From an uncultured Treponema sp. (GTDB lineage: Bacteria; Spirochaetota; Spirochaetia; Treponematales; Treponemataceae), in the NCBI GenBank assembly GCA_946410085.1, contig CAMJZA010000013.1:1-61264 (forward strand): a DNA stretch of 61,264 nt, written 5' to 3'. The notes below the pieces were generated by a model, which did no database searches, had not been told where the DNA came from, and saw only the letters and a program-made list of their open reading frames with translations. Made by a program: the position numbers and the translations under genes. Below are positions 5,210 through 61,264 of the stretch, in pieces. Position 1 is the first letter of the stretch. Every line of letters starts with the position of its first letter.

Positions 5210-6316
5210 TCATGTTTTCCTGACGACGAAGAGGTATTCGCTGACCTGGAGGCTACGGGCTGACAGGTTGCGGCTGCCGCGGAATGTCGGGTAGGGGATT
5301 TCGGCCGTCCTGACGCTGCCGTAGCGGGAAAGCATGGCAGTCATTTCTTCCATGCGGATGAAGCCTTCCGAGTTGTAGGAGATGATGAGGTACTTCGTGT
5401 CGAGTGAGGATACGAGGGCTTCCAGCGATGAAAGCGCGTCTTTTGCGCGGTTGAAGGCCGAACGGTTCCAGTCCTGGGGAATGCCCGACACTTCGCTCAC
5501 CGGGGCGTCCAGCGAGTTCCGCACTATCAGGTTCAGCATGAAGTAGTTGGATCCGTAGGGGTGCTGGTTGTAGGGCGGGTCCAGGTAGGCGAGGTCCAGC
5601 CCCTTGAGGCGGGGGGCGAGGGTAAGGGCGTCTTCCTGAAAGATTTCATGGCGGGAGCTGAATGCGCTGAGTACCGGCTTTTTCAATTCCACCCGGCCCA
5701 GTATGCGGGGAAGGGCGTTCCTGCCTGCTCCGCCGAAACAGCCGATGCCCGTCGTTTTGTCCTTATAGAATCCTTTGAATACCCCGCTTGTGTTTACGTG
5801 GATGGAAGCTTCCGTCAGGAGGGGGGCGATGAAGAATCTCTGCAACTCTGGTCCGGCGAAGCGGTCGGCAAGCGCGCGGTAACTGTCGATGCGGAGGGCG
5901 TTTTCCCGCGTGTAGAATACCCGCTCCCCCTTCTGTATGTGCGCATCGTCGGCGGGGGCGTAGTGGGCGGAAAGGATGCCGCTCACGGGGGCACGTTTGA
6001 ATTCCGCCTCGATGAGATCCCGGCAGCGTTCCCATTCGGCTTCGGGAAAGTCCTTCCGGTTCGTCAGGTAACAGGCATTGATCACGGCGGAATAGGCTTC
6101 CAGGTCGTTGACGATGAGGCGGCTGCTGTAGCGCTTGAGCATGCGGGCGACGATGCCGGAGCCGGAAAAGAGGTCGGCGCAGCTGAGGCGGCGTTTTCCC
6201 AGTTCGGTCCTGATGCGCAGGACTTCCGCCTCGATGCTGCCGAGGAGCTGGCGCTTGTTGCCGATGTAGGTGATGATCTGGCTCGTGAGGTAGGCCGGGT
6301 TTTCTTCCTTTTTCAT
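5210..6316 (-). CDS. D12-class DNA adenine-N6 methyltransferase
   Basis: A 368-residue DNA methyltransferase. The N-terminus has the YIGNKRQLL motif typical of Dam/D12 enzymes. Motif I is CADLFSGSGIVARML (about residues 42-56). The catalytic motif is LAYLDPPYNQHPYGSNYF (DPPY near 244). These enzymes transfer a methyl group from SAM to adenine N6. No partner endonuclease is next to it; its position between rdgB and the parS region allows either a solitary regulatory methylase or half of a dispersed system. The recognition site cannot be read from sequence. SAM would be supplied by MetK, encoded 9 kb away. Confidence 0.88.
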   Translation of the reverse strand: MKKEENPAYLTSQIITYIGNKRQLLGSIEAEVLRIRTELGKRRLSCADLFSGSGIVARMLKRYSSRLIVNDLEAYSAVINACYLTNRKDFPEAEWERCRDLIEAEFKRAPVSGILSAHYAPADDAHIQKGERVFYTRENALRIDSYRALADRFAGPELQRFFIAPLLTEASIHVNTSGVFKGFYKDKTTGIGCFGGAGRNALPRILGRVELKKPVLSAFSSRHEIFQEDALTLAPRLKGLDLAYLDPPYNQHPYGSNYFMLNLIVRNSLDAPVSEVSGIPQDWNRSAFNRAKDALSSLEALVSSLDTKYLIISYNSEGFIRMEEMTAMLSRYGSVRTAEIPYPTFRGSRNLSARSLQVSEYLFVVRKT

Positions 6317-48832: not shown

Positions 48833-50269
48833 ATGAATGAAAGCAGTATCTTAACAGATTATAAACTGGAAAAGCTCATAAAGGACGGAGAAGGCTTTAC
48901 TGTTGAATTCAAAAAGTGCAGGAACGCCCTGCCGGCTTCTATTTTTGAGACCGTCTGCTCATTCTCCAACCGTTACGGCGGATTCATCCTGCTGGGCGTT
49001 GATGATTCTGGAAAAGTTTTGGGCGTGGAAGCATCTGCTGTCCAAAAAATCAAAAAGGATTTTATCAACACGCTCAACAACCCGAATAAAATTCGTCCGT
49101 CGCTGTTCCTGAATCTTGAGGAATATGAATACGAAGGAAAAACGATTCTCTGGGTATATGTACCTGTCAATTCCGATGTTGAATACTGTGACGGCAAGGT
49201 TTATGACCGCAACGGAGATGCAGACCAGGACATAACAAAATCCGTTGATCTGGTGGCGAACCTTTACAGCAGAAAGTCGCATGATTTTTATGAGCGGACA
49301 CTGCTTCCCTATGCAACGCTTGACCACCTTCGGCTTGACTTGATTCCAAAAGTGAAGCAGCTTGTGCAGATTAAGAATACTTTGCATCCGTGGAAGGACA
49401 TGGATGCAATGGACATCTTTAAAAGTTCGGGACTGTACAAGGACAATCTCATCACAGGAAAAAAAGGCTTCAATCTTGCGGCGATTCTTCTGTTCGGCAA
49501 GGACACGGCTATTCAGTCATGCCTTCCGGCGTATAAAACCGACGCAATTTTCCGCGACAAGAATCCAGACCGCTACGATGACCGCCTGATTGTAGAGACA
49601 AATCTAATCGAAAGTTACGAGAGGCTGATGGAGTTCGTTCAGAAGCATACTGATGACAGATTCTTTCTGGTTGACAACTTGTCGACCAGCGTACGCGACA
49701 AGATTGCCCGTGAGGTTGTTGTGAACACGCTTGTTCACCGCGAGTATTCAAGCGCATATCCTGCAAAGCTGATTATCACAAAAGACAGCCTTTATACTGA
49801 AAACTGGAACCGCTCCACAAAGTTCGGACGGCTTACCCCCGATAACTTTACTCCCTACCCGAAGAATCCGCTTATAGCAAAGTTTTTTATGGAACTTGGA
49901 ATGGCGGACACGCTCGGTTCAGGAGTACGCAACCTGTACAAGTTCACAAAAATCTATTCCAATACAGAGCCTTTTTTGGAAGAAGGGGATGTGTTCAAGA
50001 CTACGGTTTTGCTTGAAAATGGCGGAATAAATGGCGGAATAAATGGCGGAATAAATGGCGGAATAAATGAGACTGAAAAAGTGCTTCTCGAAGCAATAAA
50101 AGCAAATCCTTTTGCTCGAAATGAAGATTTAGTACAAATCTCTTCATTTTCAAGTAGAACAGTGGACCGTACAATAAAAGCACTCCGCGAAAAAGGTGTT
50201 CTAAAACGTGAAGGTGCAAAGAAAAATGGACATTGGCTTGTACTTGCACAAAATCAGGAGAATATATAG
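48833..50269 (+). CDS. AlbA_2 (Schlafen-like) ATP-binding regulator, first gene of the defence island
   Basis: A 478-residue protein. The N-terminal AlbA_2 domain has TVEFKKCRNALPASIFETVCSFSNRYGGFILLGVDDSGKVLG, the usual E-F-K ... A-x-x-N-x-x-GG-x-x-x-x-G-V-x-D pattern. A middle HATPase_c_4-like region has VVNTLVHREYS and TLGSGVRNLYKFT. A 12-bp repeat (50029-50076) makes four NGGI units, and a C-terminal winged helix follows (EDLVQISSFSSRTVDRTIKALREKGVLKREG). Such proteins are putative transcriptional regulators often found in defence islands. The stop is two bases before the helicase start, so they are co-transcribed. Confidence 0.85.
   Translation: MNESSILTDYKLEKLIKDGEGFTVEFKKCRNALPASIFETVCSFSNRYGGFILLGVDDSGKVLGVEASAVQKIKKDFINTLNNPNKIRPSLFLNLEEYEYEGKTILWVYVPVNSDVEYCDGKVYDRNGDADQDITKSVDLVANLYSRKSHDFYERTLLPYATLDHLRLDLIPKVKQLVQIKNTLHPWKDMDAMDIFKSSGLYKDNLITGKKGFNLAAILLFGKDTAIQSCLPAYKTDAIFRDKNPDRYDDRLIVETNLIESYERLMEFVQKHTDDRFFLVDNLSTSVRDKIAREVVVNTLVHREYSSAYPAKLIITKDSLYTENWNRSTKFGRLTPDNFTPYPKNPLIAKFFMELGMADTLGSGVRNLYKFTKIYSNTEPFLEEGDVFKTTVLLENGGINGGINGGINGGINETEKVLLEAIKANPFARNEDLVQISSFSSRTVDRTIKALREKGVLKREGAKKNGHWLVLAQNQENI
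50029..50076 (+). repeat. In-frame 12-bp repeat (NGGI)
   Basis: Four copies of AATGGCGGAATA in a linker between domains. Similar NGGI runs occur in this regulator family. The number can vary by slippage without a frameshift. Confidence 0.85.
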
Positions 50270-50271
50270 AC

Positions 50272-53200
50272 ATGGCAAACACAGAAACTGTAGCAGACAC
50301 GCTGATTAGGGACAACAAGGCGTATGGCAACGTCGGGGACTTCCTGAAAGAGGTCGTAAAGGAAGGTTCCGAGCTTTCCGTTGTTTCTGCATACTTCACG
50401 ATATTCGCCTATTACGGCCTGCACGAGCAGCTTGATGCCATAAAGGGCATGAAGTTCCTGTTCGGCGAGCCTACGTTCATAAAAGGGCTGGATGCCGATG
50501 TCAGGAGCTATAAGATAGAGGATGATTCCATCATCATCTCCCCGTCAGAACGTTTCTCACAGAAACGCATTGCTCACAAGTGTGCAGAATGGATAAAGGA
50601 CAAGGTGGAGATAAAGTCCATCGTAAAGCCCAATTTCCTGCACGGAAAGATGTACTATGTCCACAGGCAGATTCAGGACTTGCAGGAAAAAAAGGCGATT
50701 TCCGGCAGCTCCAACTTCACGACAAGCGGACTGGGGCTTAAAAAGGACTGCAACAATGTGGAGCTGAACCTCATCGTGGACAGCGACCGACAGAAAGAGG
50801 AACTGAAGGGCTGGTTTGACCAGATTTGGAACGACACGACCGGACTGGTGCAGGATGTAAAGGTTGAAGTGCTCAAGTATCTGGAGCAGCTGTACAAGGA
50901 GAATGAGCCGGAGCTGGTCTATTTCAAGACCCTGTATTCGATTTTCAAGGACTACCTTGAAGAGCAGATGGACAGCAAGCTCTTTGACGAGACTGCGTTC
51001 AAGGACACGGTTGTCTGGAACAAGCTTTATGAATTTCAGAAAGACGGTGTGAAAGGTGCAATCAACAAGCTTTTAAAGCATAACGGTTGCATAATTGCAG
51101 ATTCGGTCGGCTTGGGTAAAACTTTTGAAGCTCTTGCGGTAATTAAATATTTTGAACTTAGAAATTACCGTGTTCTTGTGCTTTGTCCTAAAAAATTGAG
51201 CGACAACTGGACTGTGTATCAGGCAAGCAAAAACAGTACTTTGAATATACTTGCCAAAGACCGATTCCAGTACAACATCTTGTATCATACAGATATGGGG
51301 CGTGAGACAGGCAAATCCGGCGCAGATGGACATGATTTTGCAACTTTCAACTGGGGCACATACGATCTTGTTGTAATTGATGAAAGCCACAACTTTAAGG
51401 GCAATCCGCTTGAAGCAGAAAAGAACGGTGAAAAGCACATGAATCGTGCCAAATGGCTGATGGAGAAAATCATAAAGTCCGGCAGCAAAACAAAAGTCCT
51501 TATGCTTTCGGCTACTCCTGTAAACAACAGTCTTAAAGATTTGAGAAACCAGATAAACCTGATTACAGAAGGCAATCAGTCTGCTCTTTTTGAAACAACA
51601 GGAATTAACGATATAGCAAATACTCTGGAAAGTGCACAGAAGCAGTTTACCTATTGGGCTGATCCGAATAAAAACCCGGAACGGACAACAAAACAGCTTA
51701 TGGAAAAACTTGATTCATCATTTTTCAAGTTGCTCGATGAGCTTACGATTGCACGTTCAAGAAAACACATTACAAAATTCTATAATGAAGCTGATGTCGG
51801 AAAATTCCCAGAAAGAAAAAAGCCTATTCCTGTTTATTCTAAAATTGACACGCTTGATGAATTCCCTGAGTATTCAGCGATTAACAATCAGATTTCAAGT
51901 TACCAGCTTTCTGTTTTCAATCCGTCTAAATATGTTAAAGAAGAAAAAAAAGATTATTATGCAAAACTTGCAGGCTCTTCGGTTGAAGCTTTCATACAGG
52001 AAGACCGTGAAAAATCTTTGATTGGCATGATGAAAGTGGGCTATCTAAAACGCCTTGAAAGTTCCATTCATTCTTTTGCAATTTCAATTGACCGCACTGT
52101 AAATCAGATAACGAATCTTCTCAATAAAATAGACGAGTATGAAAAACTCTCTGAAAGCGAAAAAGAAAAATTTGCTTTGCAAAACCAAATTGAGCAGGAT
52201 TTTGATGAAGACGAGAACTTTTCAGAAGATGCAGATTCATCTGGTGATTTTGACAGTGAAAATCTGTTCGTCGGTAAGAAGCTCAAGTTCAGCCTTGCGG
52301 ACTTAAAGCTCGATGAATGGAAAAAGGACTTGCGTGCTGACCGTTCTGCAATGATTTTGATAAAAAACTCCGCAAAAGAAATTACAGCGGAGCGCGATTC
52401 AAAACTGCAAGATTTGAAAAAGCTGATTTTCGACAAGGTGAAAAATCCTTTCAATCCGCAAAACAAAAAAGTTATTGTCTTTACGGCATTCTCTGACACG
52501 GCAGAATATCTTTATAAAGAAATTCAACCTTGGGCAAAAAAAGAGCTTGGGCTTGAATCAGGACTTGTGTGCGGCTCAAAGAGTAATGCAAGCTGGGGCA
52601 AAACCGACTTCAATATGATTCTTACAAATTTTGCGCCAAAAGCAAAGCACCGCGATGAATTGAACCTCGGTGAGGACGAAACGTCAAAGGAACTTGATAT
52701 TCTGATTGCAACGGACTGCATCAGCGAGGGCCAGAACCTGCAGGACGGCGATTACCTCATAAACTATGACATCCACTGGAATCCTGTGCGCATCATCCAG
52801 CGGTTTGGACGCATTGACCGTCTGGGTAGCACAAATGCAAGCATCCAGCTGGTGAACTTCTGGCCAACGCAGGATTTGGATGACTACATAAACCTGAAGA
52901 CCCGCGTAGAAAGCCGTATGGCCCTTGTGGATTTGACCGCGACCAACGAGGACAACATTCTTGATAACTCCGAGGCAAAGGAACTTATCGCCGAGGACTT
53001 GAAGTACCGTGATCAGCAGCTCAAACGCCTGAAAGACGAAGTGCTTGATTTGGAGGACATGTCGGATTCCATCTCATTGACCGACTTTACGCTGGACGAT
53101 TTCCGCGTGGAGCTTTCAAATTTCATAAAGGACAATGCCGGGAAAATGGAAAGCGTGCCGGATGGGGTTTATGCCGTCGTTCCCTGTGACAAACAAAACA

Positions 53201-53634
53201 TTGAGGCAAGCGCACGGAACATCATCCGGCCGGGCGTGATTTACTGCCTTCGGCAAAAGAACCAGAACGAGGATTGCGGGCAGGTGAATCCGCTCAATCC
53301 CTATTTCCTTGTCTATGTGTACGAGGACGGAACGGTGCGGTTCAACTACACAAGCGCGAAATCAGTCCTGGAAGTATACCGCCTGCTGTGTTCCGGGGAA
53401 AAAGCCCCGTATGACGCGCTCTGCGACCTGTTCAATAAGGAAACCAAGAACGGCTCCGATATGGGAAAGTATTCTGCCCTGCTGGAAAAAGCGGTTGATG
53501 AAATCACCACCAGCTTTAAGAAGCGGAGCGCGGCACGGTTGACGACGGGTAGGAGCGGTATCCTTATTACAAAGGAGAAGCAGGCCTCCTGCATGGGCGA
53601 CTTTGAGCTTGTCACCTGGCTTGTGATAAAGTAG
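50272..53634 (+). CDS. PLD-nuclease/SF2 helicase fusion
   Basis: A 1120-residue protein. The N-terminal phospholipase-D-type nuclease has HGKMYY (His about 124, H-x-K) and GSSNFTTSG (about 145-153). A SNF2-like SF2 helicase follows: IIADSVGLGKTFEAL (Walker A, about 273-287), VVIDESHNF (DEAH-type box, D about 370), LSATPVNNS (about 412), then after a long acidic, AT-rich insert the C-terminal motifs IATDCISEGQNLQ (about 812) and QRFGRIDRLGS (about 842). Similar PLD-helicases accompany methylases in defence loci, where the helicase translocates and the nuclease cuts invading DNA. AGGAG lies 11 bases before the ATG. Base composition shifts at about 51,060 and 52,670. Confidence 0.9.
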   Translation: MANTETVADTLIRDNKAYGNVGDFLKEVVKEGSELSVVSAYFTIFAYYGLHEQLDAIKGMKFLFGEPTFIKGLDADVRSYKIEDDSIIISPSERFSQKRIAHKCAEWIKDKVEIKSIVKPNFLHGKMYYVHRQIQDLQEKKAISGSSNFTTSGLGLKKDCNNVELNLIVDSDRQKEELKGWFDQIWNDTTGLVQDVKVEVLKYLEQLYKENEPELVYFKTLYSIFKDYLEEQMDSKLFDETAFKDTVVWNKLYEFQKDGVKGAINKLLKHNGCIIADSVGLGKTFEALAVIKYFELRNYRVLVLCPKKLSDNWTVYQASKNSTLNILAKDRFQYNILYHTDMGRETGKSGADGHDFATFNWGTYDLVVIDESHNFKGNPLEAEKNGEKHMNRAKWLMEKIIKSGSKTKVLMLSATPVNNSLKDLRNQINLITEGNQSALFETTGINDIANTLESAQKQFTYWADPNKNPERTTKQLMEKLDSSFFKLLDELTIARSRKHITKFYNEADVGKFPERKKPIPVYSKIDTLDEFPEYSAINNQISSYQLSVFNPSKYVKEEKKDYYAKLAGSSVEAFIQEDREKSLIGMMKVGYLKRLESSIHSFAISIDRTVNQITNLLNKIDEYEKLSESEKEKFALQNQIEQDFDEDENFSEDADSSGDFDSENLFVGKKLKFSLADLKLDEWKKDLRADRSAMILIKNSAKEITAERDSKLQDLKKLIFDKVKNPFNPQNKKVIVFTAFSDTAEYLYKEIQPWAKKELGLESGLVCGSKSNASWGKTDFNMILTNFAPKAKHRDELNLGEDETSKELDILIATDCISEGQNLQDGDYLINYDIHWNPVRIIQRFGRIDRLGSTNASIQLVNFWPTQDLDDYINLKTRVESRMALVDLTATNEDNILDNSEAKELIAEDLKYRDQQLKRLKDEVLDLEDMSDSISLTDFTLDDFRVELSNFIKDNAGKMESVPDGVYAVVPCDKQNIEASARNIIRPGVIYCLRQKNQNEDCGQVNPLNPYFLVYVYEDGTVRFNYTSAKSVLEVYRLLCSGEKAPYDALCDLFNKETKNGSDMGKYSALLEKAVDEITTSFKKRSAARLTTGRSGILITKEKQASCMGDFELVTWLVIK

Positions 53635-53644
53635 GAAGAGAACT

Positions 53645-54682
53645 ATGACAGAAAATAACAGCGAAATTATAATCTATAATACAGACGATGGAAAAGCCGA
53701 CGTAAAGCTGTATTCCAAAGACGGCGTAATCTGGATGAACCAGCAGCAGATGGCGTTACTTTTTGACACCTCCAAGCAAAATATCAGTCTTCATATTGCT
53801 AATATTTTACAAGATAAAGAATTAGATGAAAAAGCAGTTGTCAAGGATTACTTGACAACTGCTTCGGACGACAAAAAATATAATGTGACATACTATGCAC
53901 TTCCTATGGTATTGGCTGTTGGTTTTCGTGTCCGAAGTATTCGCGGGATTCAGTTCAGAAAATGGGCTAATAAAAATCTTACAGAATTCTTGCAGAAAGG
54001 TTTTGTAATGGACGATGAACGCCTAAAAAATCCTGACGGACGTCCAGATTATTTTGACGAGCTTCTTGAACGAATCCGTGACATCCGTGCAAGCGAAAAA
54101 CGCTTTTATCAGAAAATCCGGGATTTGTTTGCACTTTCTTCCGATTATGACGCAACGGACAAGGCAACACAAATGTTTTTTGCCGCTACACAGAACAAAC
54201 TGATTTATGCCGTTACTCGTCAAACTGCCGCTGAACTTATTTTAGCTCGTGCTGACAGTTCCAAGCCGAATATGAACCTTACAAGCTGGAAAGGAAAAAT
54301 CGTCCGCAAACAGGATATTTACACAAGCAAAAACTATTTGACAGAAGATGAGCTTGATTCATTAAACCGAATCGTAACAATCTTTTTAGAAAGCGCAGAG
54401 TTACGCGCAAAAATGCGGAAAGATTTAACCATTCGTTACTGGGAAGAAAATGTAGATAAACTCATAACCGACCACGACTTGCCTTTGCTTGGTGACAAAG
54501 GCAGCCGTTCCCATAAACAGATGGAATCAGAAGTTGAGAAAATCTATATTGAATTTGATAAACGACGAAAAGCCTTTGATGCACAAGAAGCCGACGGACA
54601 GGATGAAGCGGAGATTATGGCTGAGATGAAAATGCTTGATGATATAGAAAATAAAATTAAGCTGAGATTGGAGAATAACTAA
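53645..54682 (+). CDS. RhuM-family protein
   Basis: A 345-residue RhuM (virulence protein/RhuM) family member: IIYNTDDGKADVKLYSKDGVIWMNQQQMALLFDTSKQNISLHIANIL, then YYALPMVLAVGFRVRSIRGIQFRKWANKNL, a helical middle (EKRFYQKIRDLFALSSDYD) and a charged C-terminus. RhuM proteins are frequent companions of type I and IIG restriction systems and are thought to modulate them; the mechanism is unknown. It starts 10 bases after the helicase stop and ends one base before the methylase start, so it is inside the operon. Confidence 0.92.
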   Translation: MTENNSEIIIYNTDDGKADVKLYSKDGVIWMNQQQMALLFDTSKQNISLHIANILQDKELDEKAVVKDYLTTASDDKKYNVTYYALPMVLAVGFRVRSIRGIQFRKWANKNLTEFLQKGFVMDDERLKNPDGRPDYFDELLERIRDIRASEKRFYQKIRDLFALSSDYDATDKATQMFFAATQNKLIYAVTRQTAAELILARADSSKPNMNLTSWKGKIVRKQDIYTSKNYLTEDELDSLNRIVTIFLESAELRAKMRKDLTIRYWEENVDKLITDHDLPLLGDKGSRSHKQMESEVEKIYIEFDKRRKAFDAQEADGQDEAEIMAEMKMLDDIENKIKLRLENN

Positions 54683-54683
54683 A

Positions 54684-57600
54684 ATGGCAAAGAATACTGA
54701 TGAAAAGCTGAATATTCAGGAAGCAATTAAGGCATTTGCAAAAGATGATATTTCAAAAGCCGGTATAAATCTCTTTACGACGATTGGCTACGACACGAGC
54801 CTGCAAGCGCCTCTGGAAGACAAGACCTTCGCTGAATTCAACGAGCTGTATGTTCAGGAATCCCCCAATCGTGAGCGGTTCAGCGAAGGGCGGGCGCTTG
54901 TTGGCGACTGGAAATCTATCGACATCCTCTTCCAGCTGACAGACGACTCCTTCAAAGGACAGGGGAAGCTTTTTGACTCCAAGGTGAATCCGTACGAGAA
55001 GCAGTCCTATCTGTGCTTTGCGGTGGAACTCAGTAAAGATGAATATACCAAAACGCAGATTTCAAATATTACACGTGAAATAAACAAACTGTTCTCGATT
55101 CCGATTCTCGTGATTTTCAAATATGGCGGGTACATAACGCTTGCAGTAATCAATCGCCGGGTGAACAAGAAAGACAGTGACCGCGACGTATTGGAAAAGG
55201 TCACGCTCATCAAGGATATCGTCATAGACCGTCCGCACAGGGCGCACATCGAGATTCTGGCGGATATGTCGCTTGACAGCTTGAACAGGACGTACGACAT
55301 CCACAGTTTTGAAGGACTGCACAAGGCATGGACAGAAGTCCTTGACACGCAGACTCTGAACAAGCGCTTTTACACGGAGCTTTCCAACTGGTACTTCTGG
55401 GCAATCAAGACCGTTGTGTATCCGGGATATGAGATGGAGGCGGACAAGGAGGGGCTTTTCAAGCGGGATGACAAAATACGCGAGCACAACGCAAAGAACC
55501 TCATCCGCCTTTTGACCCGGCTCTTGTTCGTCTGGTTCATCAAGGAAAAGGATTTGATTCCCGAGGAACTTTTTGACGAAAAAAGTATTGCTTCCATCAT
55601 TACGCGTTTTGCTCCCGAGTTCAGCAAGGATGATGGCTTAGCTGATCCCGAAAAGGCGAGCATCTACTACAAGGCAATTCTTCAAAATCTCTTTTTTGCG
55701 AGCCTTAATGCCGAACAAAGCAAACGGGCTTTCCGTATTGACGGACAGAATCAGAACGCCACGAGCCTGATGCGCTACAAACGATACCACAAGAATCCGG
55801 AAGCTTTTGTAAGCCTTATAGAATCGAAAGTTCCGTTCATGAACGGAGGTCTTTTTGAGTGTCTGGACCATCAGGACGACGAGCTGAAAGGCCGGAAGGG
55901 GGGAGCTGTAATCGACTACGAGGATGGCTTCAGCGACCGGAGCGACAACGAGCTTTTTGTTCCCGACTACATTTTCTTTGGAAAGGACGTGCAGGTTGAC
56001 CTGAGCAGCGAATACGATGACAAAAAGAAAAAGGAAGTCACGGTAAACGGAATCATCAACATCCTGCAAAAATACAAGTTCACGATTGCAGAAAACACAC
56101 CGGTGGAAGAGGACATCGCGCTTGACCCGGAGCTTCTAGGCCGCGTGTTTGAAAACCTTCTTGCTTCTTACAACCCTGAAACAAAAACAAATGCCCGCAA
56201 ACAGACAGGAAGTTTTTATACTCCAAGACCAATTGTAGAATACATGGTTGATGAAAGCTTAAAAGCTTATTTAAAAACAAAGATAAAAGATGCAGCACTT
56301 TCAAAAGGAACTTTGGAAGAAAAAACAAAAGCTGTAGAAGAACTCGAAAACACTCTTGATTCAAAACTCGACAATCTCATCGGTTATAATGAAACTGAAC
56401 CTGAGTTTTCTGCAGAAGAACGTTTCCAGATTTTACGTTATATCGATGAATGTAAAATCTTAGACCCTGCCTGTGGTTCTGGTGCTTTCCCTATGGGAAT
56501 TTTACAGAAAATGGTTTATGTAATTCATAAGCTTGACCCGCAGAACGACAATTGGAAGCAGATTCAGATTCAAAAGATTTCTAATGATACAAAGCTTACT
56601 CCAAAAGAAAAGAATGAGCTTCAAAAAGAAATCCTCACAGTATTTGATGATAACGAACTGGACTATGCACGAAAGCTCTATTTGATTGAAAATTGTATAC
56701 ACGGAATAGACATACAGCCGATTGCCACACAGATAAGCCGACTTAGATTCTTTATCTCGCTTATTGTTGACCAGAAGGTTGATGGAAATAAGGCAAATTT
56801 TGGTGTGCGTCCGCTGCCTAATCTTGAAAACCGTTTTGTTACCGCAAACAGTTTGATTGGGCTTGATAATCAGACAGGCTATCTTGCGGAAGCTGAGATT
56901 ATTGATTTAAAGGAAGAACTGAAAACAATCCGCCACAAATTGTTCAACGCAAAAAGTCCTTCCTATAAATTTGAGCTTAAACAGAAAGACAAAGAAATCA
57001 GAGGTAAGATGGAGCAGGTGCTTCTTGACTCTGGCTTTGGAAAGCAAAATGCCAGCATGATTTCCACCTGGGATCCCTATGATAAGAACAAGAGTGCAGA
57101 TTTCTTTGATGCAGAATGGATGTTCGGAATAAAGGATGGTTTTGATATTGTGATTGGGAATCCTCCATATATTTCTGCTCCAGCACAGATTGTTGATACT
57201 GTCATGAACAAACAACGTCAACAGCTTATTGATTCGGATAGGTTCAAATCCTTGTATCAGAAATGGGATATGTATATTGTTTTCATTGAATTGGGTTTGC
57301 AGTTGAGTAAACAGAATGGAATTCTTTCTATGATTGTACCATATCCATTAACCAATCAATTGTATGCAAAAGTCCTTCGTAAAATCCTTGTTGAAGAAAA
57401 CGACATGTTTGAGCTTGCCGATTTGAACGGCACAAAGATTTTTGATAATGCTACTGTGAGCAATTGTATTCCATTTGTAAGAAAGTCTAAAACAAAAGGA
57501 AAAACATGGATTAGCAAGGTTGATGAAAATCTGAAAATCATCCGGGAATTTTTACAAAATCATAGCGACCTTGTGCAAGATGAAAAAACGTATGTTTGGA

Positions 57601-58382
57601 ACGTAACGCAGGAAAAACGCGAAACGAACCGCCACGCCGATATGCATGTTTTGGGTGATTTTTGCTTTATAAGTTATGGCCTGCGATTAAATTCTGACGA
57701 AAAAACTGCAAGAGGCGAGTTCAAAAAAGCTGATTTGTTAAGTGAAACTCCCGATGCGATTCATTGTCGAAAATTGATTGAAGGAAAAGATATTGAGCGA
57801 TATCAAATTAGGAAAATTCATTATGTTGAGTGGGGAACAGATAGGTGTCCAGCAAAATTAGTTCGCCCGACATTTTCCGAGTTCTACGATTTTCCAAAAT
57901 TATTTTGCAATTATCTGGGAAATTTGACTTGTGTAGCTGATTTTAAAAACCAATTTATTCATACGCATCTGATAACAGGTTGTGTTCTTTGGAAAGATTT
58001 GCATGGTGTTGAGAATAAAAGCATTACCTCAAGCATCAAAAAGTTCAGCACAATGGCTCGCGAGGCTATGGAAGAACTTTCTAAAACGATAGATTTGCGT
58101 TATTTGCTCGGCGTGATGAACTCAAAGTATGCTTCTGTGTTACTGACGAATTTGCGCGGCGGTGATTATCACATTTACCCAGAGCATATCCGTAATATCC
58201 CGATTCCATCTGCCACTCCCGACCAGCAAAAACCTATTATCGACCTTGTAGACAAAATCCTCGCTGCAAAAAAAGCCAATCCGCAGGCAGATACAATCAA
58301 AGAAGAAGCAGAAATCGACCGCCTTGTCTACACGCTCTATGGCCTTTCCGAAGACGAGATAAAGATTGTGGAGGGGAGGTAG
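54684..58382 (+). CDS. Eco57I-type restriction-modification methylase (type IIG-like)
   Basis: A 1232-residue protein. SAM-binding motif I is LDPACGSGAFPMGIL (about 593-607); the catalytic motif is IVIGNPPYISAPAQ (about 822-835), giving N6-adenine methylation of the Eco57I/PglX kind. The N-terminal 500 residues contain the region common to large Eco57I-type enzymes (VELSKDEYTKTQISNITREINKLFSIPILVIFKYG), but I cannot identify a certain PD-(D/E)XK nuclease motif. The C-terminal 300 residues (PTFSEFYDFPKLFCNYLGNLTCVADFKNQFIHTH; KYASVLLTNLRGGDYHIYPEHIRNIPIP) are a TaqI-like specificity region. GC is higher in 54.8-56.2 kb than after it. Nuclease activity may come from the PLD-helicase upstream. 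Confidence 0.9.
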   Translation: MAKNTDEKLNIQEAIKAFAKDDISKAGINLFTTIGYDTSLQAPLEDKTFAEFNELYVQESPNRERFSEGRALVGDWKSIDILFQLTDDSFKGQGKLFDSKVNPYEKQSYLCFAVELSKDEYTKTQISNITREINKLFSIPILVIFKYGGYITLAVINRRVNKKDSDRDVLEKVTLIKDIVIDRPHRAHIEILADMSLDSLNRTYDIHSFEGLHKAWTEVLDTQTLNKRFYTELSNWYFWAIKTVVYPGYEMEADKEGLFKRDDKIREHNAKNLIRLLTRLLFVWFIKEKDLIPEELFDEKSIASIITRFAPEFSKDDGLADPEKASIYYKAILQNLFFASLNAEQSKRAFRIDGQNQNATSLMRYKRYHKNPEAFVSLIESKVPFMNGGLFECLDHQDDELKGRKGGAVIDYEDGFSDRSDNELFVPDYIFFGKDVQVDLSSEYDDKKKKEVTVNGIINILQKYKFTIAENTPVEEDIALDPELLGRVFENLLASYNPETKTNARKQTGSFYTPRPIVEYMVDESLKAYLKTKIKDAALSKGTLEEKTKAVEELENTLDSKLDNLIGYNETEPEFSAEERFQILRYIDECKILDPACGSGAFPMGILQKMVYVIHKLDPQNDNWKQIQIQKISNDTKLTPKEKNELQKEILTVFDDNELDYARKLYLIENCIHGIDIQPIATQISRLRFFISLIVDQKVDGNKANFGVRPLPNLENRFVTANSLIGLDNQTGYLAEAEIIDLKEELKTIRHKLFNAKSPSYKFELKQKDKEIRGKMEQVLLDSGFGKQNASMISTWDPYDKNKSADFFDAEWMFGIKDGFDIVIGNPPYISAPAQIVDTVMNKQRQQLIDSDRFKSLYQKWDMYIVFIELGLQLSKQNGILSMIVPYPLTNQLYAKVLRKILVEENDMFELADLNGTKIFDNATVSNCIPFVRKSKTKGKTWISKVDENLKIIREFLQNHSDLVQDEKTYVWNVTQEKRETNRHADMHVLGDFCFISYGLRLNSDEKTARGEFKKADLLSETPDAIHCRKLIEGKDIERYQIRKIHYVEWGTDRCPAKLVRPTFSEFYDFPKLFCNYLGNLTCVADFKNQFIHTHLITGCVLWKDLHGVENKSITSSIKKFSTMAREAMEELSKTIDLRYLLGVMNSKYASVLLTNLRGGDYHIYPEHIRNIPIPSATPDQQKPIIDLVDKILAAKKANPQADTIKEEAEIDRLVYTLYGLSEDEIKIVEGR

Positions 58383-58385
58383 AGG

Positions 58386-60200
58386 ATGACAGAAACAAAC
58401 GAAAACAAAATAAATTTTTCTGAAATTGATTTTTCTGTTTTTCAGGAAAAAATAGCACCTTTATCTAAAGAAAACTTATCATTGTTGATACTTGATGAAG
58501 AATTACGAAAATTTGATATTTCAAATTTGTCAGAAACTGAAATGTCAATTATTGAATTATTCAGAAAAATATCTTCGATTATGTTGACAGATGATATATC
58601 CAATCCATTTGCTCCTCGTTTGCAACTAGCAAAAGGTGCTAGAACTTGTATGCCGGAAGATATTACAGAAACTGAAATGGATTTTTTTATAAGTATACTT
58701 GATAAAATTGCTAATAAAATGCTAAAAGCTCGTATGGCAGATATATTGTGGTTCAGAAAATATAAGAAAAAAATAGAGTACCCCAAAATAGTTATTAATA
58801 TTTATCTTTCAATAGATTTTGATGACCCAAAATTTTTTGAAAATCTATTAATTTGGAGACGCGGCCTTTATCTTGCCACTCAAATAAATGATTCGACTTC
58901 GCTTTCTGCATTTTCAAAAAAAAGTGTAGATTATTTATTTAATACGAATTTTAACAATGATGCTTGTTTTTTGAGGTTTACCGAAATGTTGCGAAGCTTC
59001 AAGCTGTGTTCGGATAATTCCACAGCTATGATTGCACATCTTATTCAGTGGGGTGAAGGACTTCAAAAAAACAACAATTTTCTCCTAGCTGAACAATATT
59101 ACAATGAGGCAAGTTTATGGTTATTGCAAACACAGAAAGATTCTAATAAGTATACAGAATTGCAAATTAAAAGGGTTTCTGCATATATTGATGCTGCAGA
59201 AAAAGCTGAAAACGGTTTATCATCAGCTTCAAATTATGAAAGTGCATTAAAAATACTTCGTTCTTTGGAGAGAAAACAAAGGGAACAATTTTTTCCTCTA
59301 GAACAAGAAAATGAGCTAATCAAAAATATAAGAAAAAGTGGAAAATTTGCACTTTCTGAAATGAGAGAGACTTCAGCATCTTTTGATATTAGTAATGAAA
59401 TAAAATACATAGCTGAAAATATAAAAGGCAAAGATAAAAATTCTGCTTTATTTAATTTTGTTGCATTGCCAGGTCATATATCATTCTCTAAATTAGAAGC
59501 TGATTCCATAAACTTTATAAAAGCAAGTCCACTACTATCTTTTTTCGGACACACAACCTTTGGTAGTGATGGGAGAATTATTTCAAAAACCTCAGGAATA
59601 GATAGCTTTGAAAGTTTGGATTCTAAAAATTCTGCTGTTTGGAATAATATGATATGGCAATATATGCTTCATATAAGTTGTATTGTTCAAAGTGCAATTT
59701 TACCTGCATTACAAATAATTCGCTGTGAACATAATATTCAATTCACTGACATGATTCAGATTGTTCAAAAATCAAATATAATTCCGATTGATAGAATTGC
59801 CATATTTGCAAAGGGGCTTTATGCAGGTTTTTCTTATGATTTTATGACCTCTTTACATTTGTTGAGTCCGCAAGTAGAAAATATGGTTCGAATACAATTA
59901 CAAGAGGCTGGTGTTAGGACTACTATCATTGAAAATGGTACGGATGTTGAGCAAGAAATTGGATTTTCAAAATTAGTAGAAAAAGAAAAATTTGAAGATA
60001 TTTTTGGCAAAGATTTATCTTTTGAATTAAAAGCATTGTTTTGTGATGGAGCTGGACCAAACTTGCGTAATAATGTTGCTCATGGTCTTTTATCATCAAG
60101 TGAAATGAATAGCGTATATAGTGTTTATTGTTGGTGGCTCTGTTTTAAATTGGTATTCATAAATTTTTACAACGCAGAAAGAGAAGACGTGAAAAAATAA
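58386..60200 (+). CDS. DUF4209-like protein with RNxxxHG motif (possible HEPN RNase)
   Basis: A 604-residue, strongly AT-rich gene product. The first 500 residues are mostly helical with no known domain. Near the C-terminus is LRNNVAHGLLSS (RNNVAHG, about 561-567), which is the RNxxxHG signature of DUF4209. The spacing R-x4-H is also the catalytic motif of HEPN ribonucleases, common effectors of phage defence. It begins three bases after the methylase stop. A likely role is an effector that stops growth or degrades RNA when the restriction part fails. That is inference; the motif itself is seen. Confidence 0.6.
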   Translation: MTETNENKINFSEIDFSVFQEKIAPLSKENLSLLILDEELRKFDISNLSETEMSIIELFRKISSIMLTDDISNPFAPRLQLAKGARTCMPEDITETEMDFFISILDKIANKMLKARMADILWFRKYKKKIEYPKIVINIYLSIDFDDPKFFENLLIWRRGLYLATQINDSTSLSAFSKKSVDYLFNTNFNNDACFLRFTEMLRSFKLCSDNSTAMIAHLIQWGEGLQKNNNFLLAEQYYNEASLWLLQTQKDSNKYTELQIKRVSAYIDAAEKAENGLSSASNYESALKILRSLERKQREQFFPLEQENELIKNIRKSGKFALSEMRETSASFDISNEIKYIAENIKGKDKNSALFNFVALPGHISFSKLEADSINFIKASPLLSFFGHTTFGSDGRIISKTSGIDSFESLDSKNSAVWNNMIWQYMLHISCIVQSAILPALQIIRCEHNIQFTDMIQIVQKSNIIPIDRIAIFAKGLYAGFSYDFMTSLHLLSPQVENMVRIQLQEAGVRTTIIENGTDVEQEIGFSKLVEKEKFEDIFGKDLSFELKALFCDGAGPNLRNNVAHGLLSSSEMNSVYSVYCWWLCFKLVFINFYNAEREDVKK

Positions 60201-60223: not shown

Positions 60224-61021
60224 ATGTCGTCAATAATTATATGGACAAATCATGAGAATCCTTCTGGTGATTTATGGGGTGTAGCTGATTCTCGGTATAT
60301 TCATCCTGATAAGAGTATAATAACAGATAATGGTCCTAAGATATTTGAATTACCAATTATTTGTCAAAATCCATCTTCCCGAGGCTTCTTTGAAAATACA
60401 TATTATTTTAATAAAATAGGTTTTGCATTTGCCGGATCTGTAACAGCTGCTTTATGTATTTATACAAATGCCTCTCATATGTTATCAAATTTAGCTTCAG
60501 TTGATAAAAACGTGCCTTCTATTGAAGAAATAAATGAATTCTTAGTAAGTATAGCAAAATCATATACTTTGCCTATTAGCAATCCTTTTCCAATGGAATT
60601 CTCTGTGTTCGGTTGGTGTCCTATAAAAAAAGAAAATAGTGTTTTTTATACAAGTATTGATAGTAAAAATCTTGTTACAACTGATGATAAATCTGAAGAA
60701 TGTAAAGAACAGCCTTTAATCATGGGGTGTCATAAACAAGAGATTCTTCAAAAAATAAATGATGCTATTTCTATGGAAAATTGTAAAACAAGAATTCCTC
60801 TTATGGTATTGCGAAAAGTTGTATCGGAACATGAGTTTCCCGAAATAGGTGGGGCTATACAACTCGGTATCAATATTAATACAAGTTTCAACTTATTTTC
60901 AGTACTAAATCCTTTTACTAATGAAAATGGAAAATCTTCATTACAGTTTAGAAATTTTGATTTGTTCCATGATATTCGTAATGTTGGAAACTGTTTTATA
61001 AATATAAATGGTATGTGTTAA
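60224..61021 (+). CDS. Protein resembling proteasome/HslV-type Ntn hydrolases
   Basis: A 265-residue, AT-rich gene. The start, SSIIIWTNHENPSGDLWGVADSRYI followed by DNGPKIFEL, then YYFNKIGFAFAGSVTAALCIY, has the order seen in HslV and proteasome beta subunits: nucleophile-like first residues, a G-x-x-D-S/G-R turn, K-I, then G-F-A-G(S/G). HslV itself reads VIAGDG...KVRRL...VIAGFAGGTAD. Length fits a single Ntn domain plus tail. A protease or amidase role is possible, but catalytic residues must be checked. GGAGGAG lies nine bases before the ATG; it starts 23 bases after the DUF4209 gene. If the likeness is chance, this is an unknown protein. Confidence 0.4.
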   Translation: MSSIIIWTNHENPSGDLWGVADSRYIHPDKSIITDNGPKIFELPIICQNPSSRGFFENTYYFNKIGFAFAGSVTAALCIYTNASHMLSNLASVDKNVPSIEEINEFLVSIAKSYTLPISNPFPMEFSVFGWCPIKKENSVFYTSIDSKNLVTTDDKSEECKEQPLIMGCHKQEILQKINDAISMENCKTRIPLMVLRKVVSEHEFPEIGGAIQLGININTSFNLFSVLNPFTNENGKSSLQFRNFDLFHDIRNVGNCFININGMC

Positions 61022-61039: not shown

Positions 61040-61264
61040 ATGTCCGAATCCCAGTTAATCGAATACAAAGAATCTTGGCGTGATGAATATCTCAAATGGA
61101 TTTGCGCGAGTTTTGCTTGCCGAAACTCGTTAAGCAAGACGCGAAGCGGATTGCGACGATTTGCGGTTTTGAAAATGCTCAGGGAGGTGTGCTTTATATT
61201 GGTAAGCGAGATGACGGTTCTGTTTGTGGCGTTACTGATTCAAAGAAACTCATGGAAGATATTC
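61040..61264 (+). pseudogene. AlbA_2-type gene disrupted by a 59-nt insertion (partial)
   Basis: It starts MSESQLIEYKESWRDEYLKWIC, then a 59-base insertion changes the frame, and after it the correct frame resumes as GFENAQGGVLYIGKRDDGSVCGVTDSKKLMEDI. Together these are a canonical AlbA_2 N-terminus (E-Y-K-E-S-W ... F-x-N-x-x-GG-x-x-x-I-G). 59 is not a multiple of three, so the intact product cannot be made without frameshifting. The gene runs past the window end. It is the last visible gene of the island operon, with AGGAG before the ATG. Confidence 0.85.
61106..61164. mobile_element. 59-nt insertion with 7-bp direct repeats
   Basis: The insert contains nested inverted repeats (CGAGTTT / AAACTCG and TTGCTT / AAGCAA). 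GATTTGC occurs at 61099-61105 and again at 61158-61164, so it looks like a target duplication. It is too small to encode anything, as in MITE-like or REP-like elements. Confidence 0.75.

Follow-up and report, generated by a model that had tools for sequence, protein, structure and literature searches.

The last complete gene of a contig of an uncultured rumen Treponema sp. (61,264 nucleotides; we refer to this whole stretch as the window) almost certainly encodes a proteasome-like Ntn hydrolase whose catalytic signature is intact, as judged by its predicted fold and by residue conservation. The gene, its family, the predicted fold, the catalytic signature and the setting among mobile elements and defence genes were established computationally. 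Our leading explanation, to which we give about even chances, is that of a stand-alone, horizontally mobile enzyme, a protease directed against phages (or mobile elements) and encoded by a single gene. That unrelated bacteria carry its relatives in defence islands, on plasmids and in prophages suggests, short of proof, recruitment of a proteasome-type protease for the conflict between bacteria and phages.

The candidate gene and its island

The candidate belongs to a low-GC run of closely spaced genes on the plus strand, extending from position 48833 to the contig end. The GC content is 60% in positions 1–46000 of the window but 30% across the two complete genes nearest the contig end; for the candidate itself, the values are 29.8% versus 59.7% in the same upstream region. 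The original prediction spoke of a single AT-rich reading frame beside a DUF4209 gene in a restriction island. The frame and its neighbour are as described, and the island is real, as seen from the Pfam and PADLOC matches upstream of the candidate. The genes of the run are:

48833–50269, plus strand: AlbA_2/Schlafen-type protein, the first gene of the run (PF04326, E 4.4e-19)
50233–53634, plus strand: PLD (HKD) and SNF2 helicase protein (PADLOC C3a139)
53645–54682, plus strand: RhuM-family protein, PADLOC candidate PDC-S05 (PF13310, E 4.2e-104; PDC-S05, E 1.7e-140)
54684–58382, plus strand: type IIG-like restriction enzyme-methyltransferase (Eco57I / TaqI_C), 1232 aa (PF07669, E 5.1e-29; PADLOC REase_MTase_IIG, E 1.5e-61)
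58386–60200, plus strand: DUF7380/DUF4209 (HEPN) protein, 604 aa, PADLOC candidate PDC-S39 (PF24098, E 1.4e-21; PF13910, E 2.5e-19; PDC-S39, E 6.6e-159)
60224–61021, plus strand: candidate Ntn hydrolase, 265 aa (open reading frame, family alignment, AlphaFold model, PDB matches)
61040–61264, plus strand: second AlbA_2-type gene, start only, cut by the contig end

Restriction–modification (R-M) operons with HEPN and RhuM toxins have already been described (Anantharaman et al. 2013, PMC3710099). In the island, the genes upstream of the candidate (PDC-S39/DUF4209, RhuM and R-M) are of this type, and hence the rest of the island is ordinary; the text of that paper mentions neither the proteasome nor Ntn hydrolases. 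The DUF4209 protein contains an RNNVAH (R-x4-H) motif. In the AlbA_2-type protein at 48833–50269, four GGIN repeats form a run (NGGINGGINGGINGGIN) between the HATPase-like region and the C-terminal winged helix. Well outside the island, at 5210–6316 on the minus strand, there is a homologue of type II DNA methyltransferases (PADLOC MTase_II, E 1.2e-113).

Since the island runs up to the contig end at 61264, nothing further downstream is readable. The first 23 residues of the truncated AlbA_2-type gene are 95.7% identical to those of an intact 439-aa gene downstream of the homologue at locus L004. Compared to this intact counterpart, the gene has a 59-bp insertion that breaks the frame. The insertion is flanked on both sides by the 8-bp repeat GATTTGCG, resembling a target-site duplication, and has a small hairpin inside. 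It has a single occurrence in the genome, about 100 bp short of where the contig stops, and may therefore be an assembly error.

The open reading frame of the candidate is intact. It starts with ATG and is preceded by a purine-rich, ribosome-binding-like AAAGGAGGAGGAG. The closest homologues, found in two other Treponema sp. MAGs, are 86% and 75% identical and cover the whole length. The dN/dS ratio among the Treponema copies is about 0.17–0.22 (about 0.18–0.22 for the candidate versus two relatives, from 0.065/0.293 and 0.170/0.925), that is, the frame is under purifying selection. Together with these full-length homologues and the low dN/dS, the presence of S or T at position 2 and the invariant D22, K39 and G71 in an alignment of 15 members show that the frame did not arise by chance. 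The same Treponema genome encodes its own, ordinary HslVU, and thus the candidate is not the housekeeping enzyme; BLASTP of the candidate against this HslV yields no meaningful alignment.

The family and the predicted fold

The window protein alone has no family match in Pfam, NCBIfam or PADLOC and no sequence match in PDB, and a profile search of PDB sequences produced only noise. The proteasome profile PF00227, applied to 14 family members, touches one of them marginally (E 0.11) and does not match the window protein itself. Given these fruitless family searches, the case rests on the structure and the conserved residues and not on sequence profiles.

Apart from Treponema, homologues are found on plasmids of Ruegeria, Azoarcus, Vibrio nigripulchritudo and Acinetobacter pittii, in E. 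coli, and in IMG/VR contigs. Most of the 15 aligned members are 20–30% identical to the window protein, and pairwise blastp with every member from outside Treponema gives E from 1e-11 to 1e-28 (with a small database). The proteins are 265–315 aa long. Position 2 is occupied by S or T in all 15 members, with Thr in most relatives, and W7, W18, D22, K39, G71, G130, C132, G168, G210, Q213 and G255 are invariant. In the candidate, the key positions fall into the motifs M-S-S-I-I-I-W, GVADSRY (D22), GPKIFEL (K39) and NKIGFAFAGS (G71), so the order of motifs named in the original prediction, from the N-terminal Ser through GVADSR and KI to KIGFAFAGS, is indeed present. The order S2, D22, K39, G71 is that of Thr1, Asp17, Lys33 and Gly47 of the proteasome beta subunits (numbering of PMC8665760). 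Hhalign with the Treponema HslV, although weak (E 0.064), keeps the same register, placing D22 at the Asp of GDGQ, K39 at the Lys, and AGS at AGS. The predicted nucleophile is therefore Ser2 (Ser1 once Met is removed), the other predicted catalytic residues are Asp22 and Lys39, and the predicted oxyanion residue is Gly71.

On the other hand, Ser129 and Ser169 of the 20S beta subunit appear not to be conserved in the family. The equivalent of Ser129 (position 169) is C, D, S or N and that of Ser169 (position 208) is I or V, in a register inferred from the motifs around G168 and GGxxQ and not from coordinates.

In the Vibrio member (L007, position 6001), the start aligned to the other members seems to be ATC (ATC ACT TCA...), close behind AAAGGAG. 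The public annotation begins 14 codons later, and hence misses the catalytic Thr. The copy on a second Vibrio plasmid (L009) is frameshifted. One further match (G178/L003, E 1.8e-4) was discarded as a non-member, overlapping an ABC transporter gene on the opposite strand.

The AlphaFold2 model of the window protein, built with ten sequences, has pLDDT 78 and pTM 0.78, the C-terminal 30 residues being poorly modelled. The order of elements is two strands, a long S3–S4 hairpin, two helices, strands, two helices and two strands. The top Foldseek matches in PDB are proteasome beta subunits and Anbu (E 3.5e-8), and no different fold came up. VIA-align yields Z 20.2 with the yeast beta5 subunit (rmsd 3.8 over 194 residues) and Z 19.6 with Anbu of Yersinia bercovieri (5nyw; rmsd 2.8 over 193 residues), a tie by the rule of VIA-align itself. 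In many VIA-align rows residue 2 of the model, immediately behind the initiator Met, is placed on chain residue 1 (Thr1), so that in the predicted structure the nucleophile is where the original prediction expected it.

The second model, that of a member from a viral contig (L011, 24% identical to the window protein), has pLDDT 81 and matches proteasome beta subunits with Foldseek E 1.4e-9 and VIA-align Z 20.3 in the same N-terminal register. The two models share the same ten sequences and thus are not fully independent; the predicted proteasome-type fold is nevertheless a firm assignment. Moreover, the best matches in BFVD include a phage protein named HslV and another one named proteasome beta subunit. 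Since both models match proteasome beta subunits and the signature is conserved, the candidate is assigned to proteasome-like Ntn hydrolases, in agreement with the initial proposal of a proteasome/HslV-like enzyme.

The models also differ from canonical subunits in one segment. The distance from K39 to G71 is 32 residues (31 in L011), compared to 14 between K33 and G47 in 20S beta, and the extra sequence is modelled as an extended beta-hairpin at the S3–S4 site. The helices H1 and H2 are predicted at 73–87 and 100–118. The C-terminal tail has a single short helix (247–253) of low confidence.

The proteasome-like family comprises 20S beta, HslV, Anbu, BPH, connectase and 22 uncharacterised subfamilies (Fuchs, Alva, Lupas 2021, PMC8665760), the uncharacterised homologues, among them the phage-borne PPH and AAH, being already in that paper. 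The candidate resembles this family in the predicted fold, the strand order with four helices, the Thr/Ser1-Asp17-Lys33-Gly47 signature and the N-terminal nucleophile. It differs from the known proteins in the absence of a PF00227 match, the length (265–315 aa across its family), and the extended S3–S4 hairpin; residues W7, W18, C132 and Q213 are specific to its own family. Its family may still be identical to one of the described subfamilies, e.g. GPH (WP_152342571.1) or DAH (WP_085249540.1).

The candidate has the fold and the expected nucleophile chemistry in common with HslV, but it is about 90 aa longer, lacks an adjacent HslU, and coexists with a separate HslVU. With no PF00227 match, no adjacent unfoldase and only the hhalign E of 0.064, it does not belong to HslV proper. 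Anbu (5nyw) is a close structural match with no match in sequence; its C-terminal coiled-coil helix H5 is not predicted with confidence in the candidate. Connectase also has extra sequence at the S3–S4 site, where the insertions of connectase, PMI-5 and PMI-6 are situated (PMC8665760). However, the candidate is bacterial and not archaeal, and both models retain H1/H2 and have a hairpin instead of two helices, so it is not a connectase.

Genomic setting and distribution

Members of the family reside both in defence islands and on mobile elements, and their distribution is sporadic. At locus L004 the gene comes immediately after a type IIG R-M pair (methyltransferase and restriction enzyme). At L005 its neighbours are RhuM (PDC-S05) on one side and an HNH nuclease on the other, and there is an HD-CE/HATPase gene further upstream. 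On the Vibrio plasmid (L007) it is flanked by PDC-M27B/C and, on the other side, by a CBASS pair (cyclase and Cap15), beyond which there are SLATT and an unknown-group reverse transcriptase (DRT UG17). At L028 it follows PDC-S59 beside prophage tail genes. The E. coli members are of two types. One of them adjoins prophage integrase and tail-fibre genes, at several different places in the chromosome as well as on an IncI2 plasmid; the other is found within an integrative conjugative element (ICE). WP_104769329.1 is a prophage member and WP_223951560.1 the ICE member. The viral members come from IMG/VR contigs, and some of these look like the edges of prophages. In the stretch read around the Azoarcus copy (L008) there is neither a defence nor a mobility gene, and for several of the prophage copies no neighbour is known as a defence gene.

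PADLOC matches (E < 1e-5) were observed for 12 of 16 neighbour genes from six loci (L004, L005, L006, L007, L014, L028), compared to two of ten large ORFs from positions 1–46.7 kb of the window. The nominal Fisher p is 0.014, for a small test in which the neighbours were chosen by proximity and not at random.

ORF comparison revealed no partner gene recurring across the loci; what the loci did share were IS transposases, members of general families, and genes belonging to related phages. In particular, there is no AAA+ unfoldase beside the candidate in the window, and none recurs across the loci. This absence of a recurrent partner points to a single-gene module. At all the loci compared, the AT content of the gene exceeds that of the surrounding DNA, a frequent trait of horizontally acquired accessory genes.

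The family is present in three of 200 Treponema genomes, and an even draw across the phylum yielded one genome of 296, the window's own. A DNA-level search found it in 42 of 5426 E. coli genomes. No member was found among the isolated phages of INPHARED with three query sequences.

Possible function and alternatives

The candidate is very probably active as an amide-bond enzyme. Methionine aminopeptidase would strip the initiator Met and expose Ser1 (Thr1 in most relatives), which would be activated by Lys39 and Asp22; with the oxyanion hole formed by the Gly71 backbone, a peptide bond would then be cut via an acyl-enzyme. A homo-oligomeric ring with no dedicated unfoldase seems plausible, as the four predicted flanking helices resemble the ring-contact helices of HslV and BPH, although these helices only permit such an oligomer. 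Lying next to the active site, the elongated S3–S4 hairpin may limit the choice of substrate. In an infected cell, the enzyme might cleave either a protein of the phage or one of the host, the loss of which would halt the infection; the trigger and the substrate, as well as the defence outcome, are what we infer.

By genomic association, the proposition that the candidate serves anti-phage defence is evenly balanced; guilt by association cannot tell defence from counter-defence or hitch-hiking. A protease carried by phages, plasmids or ICEs might destroy restriction or other host defence proteins upon entry of the element. Many members do reside on prophages, conjugative plasmids and an ICE, and the R-M adjacency in Treponema could reflect alleviation of self-restriction. 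However, the Treponema and Vibrio copies lie inside clusters of defence systems, and the E. coli prophage copies are at the integrase and tail-fibre genes, typical sites of accessory genes, and not among early genes; we regard counter-defence as unlikely. The same occurrence in prophages, plasmids and the ICE, as well as the HTH genes adjoining the ICE copy, would agree with turnover of a mobile-element regulator, that is, prophage or ICE housekeeping, the residence in defence islands then being due only to both riding on mobile DNA. But the loci share neither a regulator nor any other partner, and the copies in the window and at L004 are found in restriction islands, away from the core genes of elements, making this explanation quite improbable.

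It is just as improbable that the candidate is no protease at all but, like connectase, a specific protein ligase or amidase, modifying one partner protein. The fold is capable of ligation, as connectase shares it along with the Thr1/Lys chemistry (PMC8665760), and the S3–S4 segment is elongated (32 versus 14 residues) at the site of the specificity insertion of connectase. Still, this segment is predicted as a long beta-hairpin instead of two helices, and H1/H2, absent from connectase, are present in both models. Finally, the candidate and the adjacent DUF4209/HEPN protein (PDC-S39) could make up a two-gene system, with the candidate as the second component; the two genes are on the same strand, 23 bp apart, and of the same low GC content. 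But no DUF4209 gene adjoins the family member at any of the annotated homologous loci, none emerged from the ORF comparison, and the plasmid records with annotated DUF4209 sites are not those that contain plasmid members of the family. Hence DUF4209 as an obligate partner is rejected, and such a system is very improbable: the neighbour noted in the original prediction is incidental.

Returning to the lone anti-phage protease, its most specific version, a self-compartmentalising proteasome-type Ntn protease acting as a lone effector and spread by prophages, plasmids and ICEs among Spirochaetota and Pseudomonadota, is tentative, and we consider it somewhat doubtful. The proteasome-like homologues of bacteria and phages have so far been listed by the dozen with neither function nor telling context, the latter being also the case for the uncharacterised subfamilies in PMC8665760, whereas the present family is found in defence islands. 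The open-access literature yielded no paper linking a proteasome-like protein with anti-phage defence, an absence that is not proof. What appears to be new is the recurrent setting in defence islands and mobile elements and the single-gene character of this proteasome-like family. If the explanation is true, the proteasome fold acts as a bacterial immune effector and joins the enzymes common to bacterial immunity and eukaryotic cell biology. As E. coli carries the family in prophages and in an ICE, and as members lie in defence islands and at prophage accessory sites, a phage-defence (or counter-defence) protease is a concrete and cheap hypothesis.

Some phage-related loci have other genes near the Ntn gene. 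In E. coli prophages (L014, 3917–4519 and 6335–7567; L020) a gene for a probable membrane protein of 200 aa precedes it, and the longer form also has a gene for a 410-aa protein behind it. Neither protein has a match in Pfam or PADLOC, and the two genes may be independent accessory cargo at one and the same prophage site. Another gene, of about 117 aa, is common to two of the viral contigs that carry the Ntn gene and lies further downstream (L012, 7052–7405; L017, 6604–6957), the products being 33% identical.
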